From Halobacteriales archaeon QS_9_67_17 (GTDB lineage Archaea; Halobacteriota; Halobacteria; Halobacteriales; Haloarculaceae): 46,426 bases of DNA. Both the position numbers and the translations under genes were made by a program. The stretch spans positions 1 through 46,426 of the forward strand of contig PXSB01000079.1 of NCBI GenBank assembly GCA_003023185.1. Reading direction: 5' to 3'. A model generated the notes under the pieces. That model saw only the letters and a program-made list of their open reading frames with translations, was not told where the DNA came from and searched no databases. This document shows positions 44,820 through 45,202 of the stretch, in pieces (within the stretch, counting starts at the first letter, position 1; each line of letters starts with the position of its first letter).

Positions 44820-44903
44820 GCGGGGGTAGCCAAGCCGGGAAACGGCGGCGGACTCAAGATCCGCTCCTGTAGAGGTCCATGGGTTCAAATCCCATCCCCC
44901 GCA
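44820..44903 (+). tRNA. tRNA-Leu (anticodon CAA)
   Basis: GCGGGGG/CCCCCGC acceptor; anticodon arm GCGGA-CTCAAGA-TCCGC; class II variable arm CCTGTAGAGG; TPsiC arm ATGGGTTCAAATCCCAT. Confidence 0.95.
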
Positions 44904-44987
44904 CTGGCAACAGTGCCGGAAGGTCGCTCTTGGGGCGGTCTTCCCCCGCATCACTTTCTGAACGACGTTCGAACAGTGACGACCGTT

Positions 44988-45118
44988 GGCGGACTCAAGA
45001 TCCGCTCCTGTAGAGTCCTCGTGAGCGAAGCGAACGAGGGCACGCGAGTCGCAGCGTGCGAACGGAGTGAGCACGACCGTCTCGCGGTGGTCCATGGGTT
45101 CAAATCCCATCCCCCGCA
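44988..45118 (+). pseudogene. 5'-truncated tRNA-Leu copy with a 74-bp insertion in the variable arm
   Basis: GGCGGACTCAAGATCCGCTCCTGTAGAG + 74 bp (45016-45089) + GTCCATGGGTTCAAATCCCATCCCCCGCA, otherwise identical to the intact tRNA; no 5' acceptor strand or D-arm. Confidence 0.9.
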
Positions 45119-45202
45119 CTGGTAACAGTGCCGGAAGGTCGCTCTCGGAGCGGTCTTCCCCCGCATCATCCTACACAGACCACCGCCGAGCGGCGCGACC
45201 TC

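Follow-up and report, generated by a model that had tools for sequence, protein, structure and literature searches.

A 5'-truncated tRNA-Leu(CAA) copy with a covarying double hairpin recurs beside its parent gene in haloarchaea

The tRNA-Leu(CAA) locus and its truncated second copy

The window, i.e., the whole stretch of 46,426 nt analysed here (contig PXSB01000079.1 of Halobacteriales archaeon QS_9_67_17), contains a single tRNA-Leu(CAA) match according to both ARAGORN and Rfam (Table 1). A promoter-like sequence upstream of this gene recurs in relatives, as judged by eye. The trailer on its other side begins with a hairpin, GCACTG..CAGTGC, which overlaps the 3' end of the tRNA and is followed by a second hairpin, GGAAG..CTTCC, and by a second acceptor 3' end, CCCCCGCA. 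By BLAST, both hairpins and the second acceptor 3' end were found after the tRNA in 73 of 75 haloarchaeal loci, and the base separating the two acceptor types (CTCGCA or CCCGCA) matched the trailer copy in all 73 (59 T, 14 C).

Downstream of the intact gene, a split and 5'-truncated copy of the same tRNA spans positions 44988-45168, in agreement with a preliminary description of this DNA. It consists of two direct repeats, both far above chance: one of 28/28 nt (44847-44874 and 44988-45015), the other of 77/80 nt (96%; 44874-44953 vs 45089-45168), the latter extending past the tRNA 3' end over about 50 nt of the trailer, an extension absent from the preliminary description. The 5' acceptor strand and the D-arm are missing from this second copy; searched for as a tRNA gene, it yielded no complete cloverleaf, and ARAGORN and Rfam called the first copy only. 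Using the gathering score or E<1 as criterion, Rfam reported a tRNA for copy 1, and all other matches were at chance level. Between the repeats, the variable arm of the second copy is interrupted by an insert, correctly located in the preliminary description but 73 nt long (45016-45088) rather than 74.

Table 1. Features of the tRNA-Leu(CAA) locus and the downstream unit in the window
Feature	Position	Strand	Basis
Intact tRNA-Leu(CAA)	44820..44904	+	ARAGORN; Rfam RF00005, 54.8 bits
Trailer	44902..44951	+	sequence; kept in 73/75 haloarchaeal tRNA-Leu(CAA) loci
Spacer, unconserved	44951..44987	+	73% identity to G005 vs 100% for insert
Anticodon arm and variable arm copy (GGCGGACTCAAGATCCGCTCCTGTAGAG)	44988..45015	+	28/28 repeat
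P1, 8-bp stem GTCCTCGT/ACGAGGGC	45015..45041	+	covariation; fold
P2, stem CGCGAG(T)CG..CG(T)CTCGCG	45043..45086	+	covariation; fold
T-arm and acceptor 3' strand, second copy	45089..45118	+	repeat; identical to own tRNA in 33/39 genomes
Trailer, second copy	45119..45168	+	96% repeat with 44874-44953

The spacer in front of the unit is probably a remnant of the 5' half of the duplicate, because relatives retain a D-arm and 5' remains there. Copies in five loci (L005, L012, L057, L162, L163) still possess the D-arm or nearly complete 5' halves, which makes a full tandem duplicate the likely starting point.

Recurrence, inheritance and covariation

A search of 99 relatives with a 400-nt region detected the full arrangement in several genera. 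We then built a covariance model from 12 units (R1) and ran it on the window's family and on 394 genomes of the order. Scores above 84 bits were reached in 36 of the 394 sampled genomes, and strong units also occurred within the window's family. Altogether, the unit adjoins tRNA-Leu(CAA) in more than 40 genomes from six haloarchaeal families (f1, f4, f5, f6, f7, f12), among them the MAG QH_7_66_36, Halorubrum lipolyticum DSM 21995, H. laminariae R60 and Halorhabdus salina; the comparison with relatives proposed in the preliminary description thus found the same unit at the same gene. A misassembly, which had been named there as a possible cause, is excluded by the presence of the unit in an independent MAG (contig PXQV01000011.1) and in isolates. 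All strong R1 hits examined had tRNA-Leu(CAA) as their neighbour except L077, where the unit lies at a contig edge and the fetched stretch contains no tRNA. At tRNA-Leu(CAA), the insert always occupies the same variable-arm nucleotide in the same orientation.

The distance between tRNA and unit is 84 nt in the window and about 70-110 nt in most of 43 measured loci from the six families. Three loci are arranged differently. The unit of L035 lies 1.4 kb from the tRNA, with an AT-rich, foreign-looking ORF (DUF2971-like by eye; relative positions 200-1390 after the tRNA) between them; a unit remnant was found 2.3 kb from the tRNA in L034; and in L032 a RHH/RelE-like gene pair (relative positions 690-1245) separates the unit from a further left half-unit. 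Integron-like gene cassettes were considered for these three loci and rejected; nearly all units contain no gene.

The insert is better conserved than the spacer in 15 of 15 species pairs, which share lineages and are not all independent, with identities of 100 vs 73% in the closest pair (window and G005) and of 96 vs 71, 93 vs 55 and 91 vs 52% in others. The nearest neighbour of an insert came from the same genus in 22 of 28 cases and from the same family in 33 of 43 (shuffled mean 14.9). These comparisons show vertical inheritance of the unit through six families, with insert sequences that track taxonomy. Phage and viral collections contained no match, and haloarchaeal plasmids contained dispersed P1-P2 matches only, covering 34-43% of the query.

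From the T-arm to the 3' end, the second copy is identical to the tRNA of its own genome in 33 of 39 genomes representing 12 tRNA variants; the distance of its T-arm is 0.21 nt to the own tRNA vs 3.70 nt to the tRNAs of other genomes. This part of the unit evolves in concert with the parent tRNA, most likely through gene conversion. P1-P2 persists in G037 and four other genomes whose second copy has a degraded T-arm or acceptor block; the acceptor part has been lost in four genomes, so the likeness to a tRNA is itself not essential. A two-halved tRNA copy lacking P1-P2 was not seen among the examined loci.

The insert alone folds into two hairpins (z = -3.03), with P1 starting at 45015; for the complete unit, the fold has z = -3.75. 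The first hairpin reported previously (CCTCG..CGAGG) is present and extends to 8 bp. The second (GCACGC..GCGTGC) appears in the minimum-energy fold of the whole unit, whereas the insert-alone fold gives the CGCGAG(T)CG stem, and it is CGCGAG(T)CG..CG(T)CTCGCG that relatives keep. P1 carries a conserved U-G wobble and a GAGC-GAA-GCGA apex, and P2 in relatives usually reads CGGAAGnCG..CGnCTTCCG. Base pairing between the 3' strands of P1 and of the acceptor was inconsistent from genome to genome, as judged by eye, and was dismissed.

Pairing across 47 units amounts to 95.7% in P1 and 96.8% in P2, and double-changed cells number 115 vs 29.6 after shuffling. A set of 69 distinct P1-P2 sequences, taken from sites at tRNAs and elsewhere (including Tyr, Phe, Ala and dispersed ones), is 97.7% paired, with 124 double-compensated cells vs 27.8. 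Alignments made with R1 are fitted to that model, and these covariation counts therefore lean towards it. MAFFT alignments of 12 and 20 sequences gave the same picture. The copied anticodon arm decays in relatives, without a single compensatory (double) change in the 47 units. P1-P2 thus exhibits, at the level of aligned sequences, the compensatory covariation that is taken as the criterion for a functional structured RNA.

Sister units and dispersed modules

P1-P2 also resides in 5'-truncated copies located 3' of tRNA-Tyr(GTA) (L079-L082, L084, L085, L088, L092, L097, L183, L185, L188) and in such downstream copies of tRNA-Phe(GAA) (L093, L099); at tRNA-Ala(CGC) in L144, it lies beside a displaced 3' end. 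In copies of tRNA-Tyr and tRNA-Phe it sits in the T-loop region, in the tRNA-Leu copy in the variable loop. A run of T4-T7 lies between tRNA-Tyr and its unit, which in L188 is tandemly repeated. In two further loci, L139 and L187, a P1-P2 unit accompanies the displaced 3' half of a tRNA-Tyr, and the fetched stretch has no intact tRNA-Tyr; these halves were probably split from their tRNA by an integrated element.

With a module-only model (R2), we detected 1-16 copies of P1-P2 per haloarchaeal genome, mostly intergenic. The insert is one copy of this module, which bears out its earlier likening to a small hairpin repeat. Some copies are embedded in other composite repeats. In L182, L184, L186, L191, L192 and L195, a conserved composite, GGGGAAGGGCAGGC..CCGACGACCGA..GGAGGAGT, carries P1-P2 and, directly after it, TTGCTTTTAATCGAATTTTTGC; this is possibly another haloarchaeal noncoding RNA with its terminator. 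A repeat with the ends GGACTGAAAGGGCGAGG..GAGCGGCCGAGGGCTTTC holds P1-P2 in L090, L095, L096, L098, L133 and L156.

A candidate tRNA satellite and its alternatives

Truncated tRNA copies are usually interpreted as integration scars. Here, the truncated copy appears as an order-wide, structurally selected element, found at several tRNA genes and evolving in concert with the parent tRNA, and the conserved arrangement makes a functional RNA element more likely than either a misassembly or a scar. We take five features of the unit as shown: its anatomy, its recurrence, the covariation of its stems, its vertical inheritance and its concerted evolution. The best explanation, to which we give an even chance, is that tRNA-Leu(CAA) was duplicated in tandem long ago and that the duplicate became a vertically inherited structured satellite element. 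The 5' acceptor strand and D-arm of the duplicate would have decayed, the P1-P2 double hairpin in the variable arm would be maintained by selection on base pairing, and the block from T-arm to trailer would be prevented from diverging from the functional tRNA, gene conversion being the most likely means. The hairpins would act as RNA, probably transcribed in the orientation of the tRNA by read-through from its promoter, and might serve as a noncoding RNA or as a processing or regulatory domain of the tRNA-Leu precursor; no conserved promoter is present in the spacer. Two things chiefly speak against a read-through RNA. The distribution is patchy, only 36 of 394 genomes exceeding 84 bits, so the unit is dispensable; and the T-run that precedes the Tyr unit would limit read-through. 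Recombination between the two T-arm blocks, which would cleanly delete the unit and restore a single tRNA, would explain the patchy presence.

The strongest alternative, although we rate it as clearly the less probable one, treats P1-P2 as a small mobile hairpin repeat, similar to SMRs, that inserts into hairpin loops and landed in dead tandem tRNA copies, insertion into the essential copy being lethal. Its dispersed, mostly intergenic copies and its occurrence inside other composite repeats mean that it could be mobile, and its sites in the T-loop region (Tyr, Phe) and variable loop (Leu) fit such targeting. The Haloquadratum walsbyi SMR-A/B and PATEs are likewise short, noncoding, hairpin-rich haloarchaeal repeats; SMRs were described with strong targeting of palindromes, and some repeats of this species insert into palindromes without target duplication (PMC3119063). 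However, P1-P2 has no terminal inverted repeat, the prominent feature of SMRs, but consists of two successive hairpins; unlike SMRs and PATEs, the unit is fixed in nucleotide and orientation at tRNA-Leu(CAA), its inserts follow taxonomy, its stems covary, and its uninserted two-halved form was never seen. It is also absent from TnpB elements: as a TnpB omega RNA, an IS200/IS605 right end or a PATE end it was rejected, R1 reaching at best 14.3 bits over 30 TnpB loci.

It is unlikely that the second copy is the attR of a lost integrative element, whose anticodon-loop integrase would have displaced the block from the anticodon arm to the 3' end. The second copy does directly repeat the 3' portion of the tRNA, as an attachment scar requires; starting in the anticodon stem and continuing past the 3' end, it has the extent of a typical att block and, like the 3' tRNA fragments left by integrases, it is a 5'-truncated copy ending at the tRNA 3' end. 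In three genomes of one genus, moreover, genes separate the tRNA from the unit or from remnants of it. Yet the gap is short in most measured loci of the six families, no element body or integrase lies between the presumed att sites, and the contig has no PF00589 match, which confirms for this contig the earlier remark that no integrase is nearby. Some copies retain remnants of the D-arm and 5' part, which show a longer duplicate, and the ordered internal hairpins, covarying and conserved order-wide, set the unit apart from integrase-left fragments. Inheritance across six families, selection on P1-P2 and an insert better conserved than its surroundings are not expected of a scar, so the reading as a trace of an integrative element, put forward earlier, is unsupported. 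Still less probable is a function of the hairpins as DNA, either as a cruciform or as a single-strand site of recombination or replication. DNA hairpins, too, would fit the compensatory changes, and the Tyr unit stands behind a T-run and is tandemly amplified in L188; but the U-G pair at P1 position 2, retained in 59 of 69 P1-P2 sequences, would be an A-C mismatch on the opposite DNA strand, which points to the RNA strand, and the orientation relative to the tRNA is fixed.

An archaeal bulge-helix-bulge tRNA intron, raised earlier as an explanation, resembles the insert in lying within tRNA sequence. It does not apply here: removal of the insert yields no tRNA, as copy 2 begins at the anticodon arm and lacks the 5' acceptor strand and D-arm, and an intact tRNA adjoins. 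With tRNA-derived and tRNA-like noncoding RNAs, the unit shares a retained T-arm and 3' end and the addition of new domains; it differs in its missing 5' acceptor strand, its new double-hairpin domain in the variable arm and its persistence beside the parent tRNA through concerted evolution. In the literature searched on tRNA fragments, integration, tRNA-like repeats and Haloferax small RNAs, we did not find the arrangement described. We tentatively propose, as a possibility with the balance still against it, an undescribed class of haloarchaeal tRNA satellite RNAs, comprising truncated tRNA-Leu(CAA), tRNA-Tyr(GTA) and tRNA-Phe(GAA) copies with a shared double hairpin, cotranscribed with the parent and acting in tRNA maturation or regulation. 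If transcribed, the unit would represent a new type of archaeal RNA linked to a tRNA; for a test, carriers are at hand, Halorubrum lipolyticum among them.

Additionally, we observed a second type of unit, in which an inverted T-arm copy (GGATTTGAATCAGGGAG..CGACCGTGG) is followed by a tRNA T-arm and 3' end. It occurs in L016, L027, L031, L038, L049, L083, L091, L093, L099 and L163 and is tandemly repeated at tRNA-Leu(TAA).
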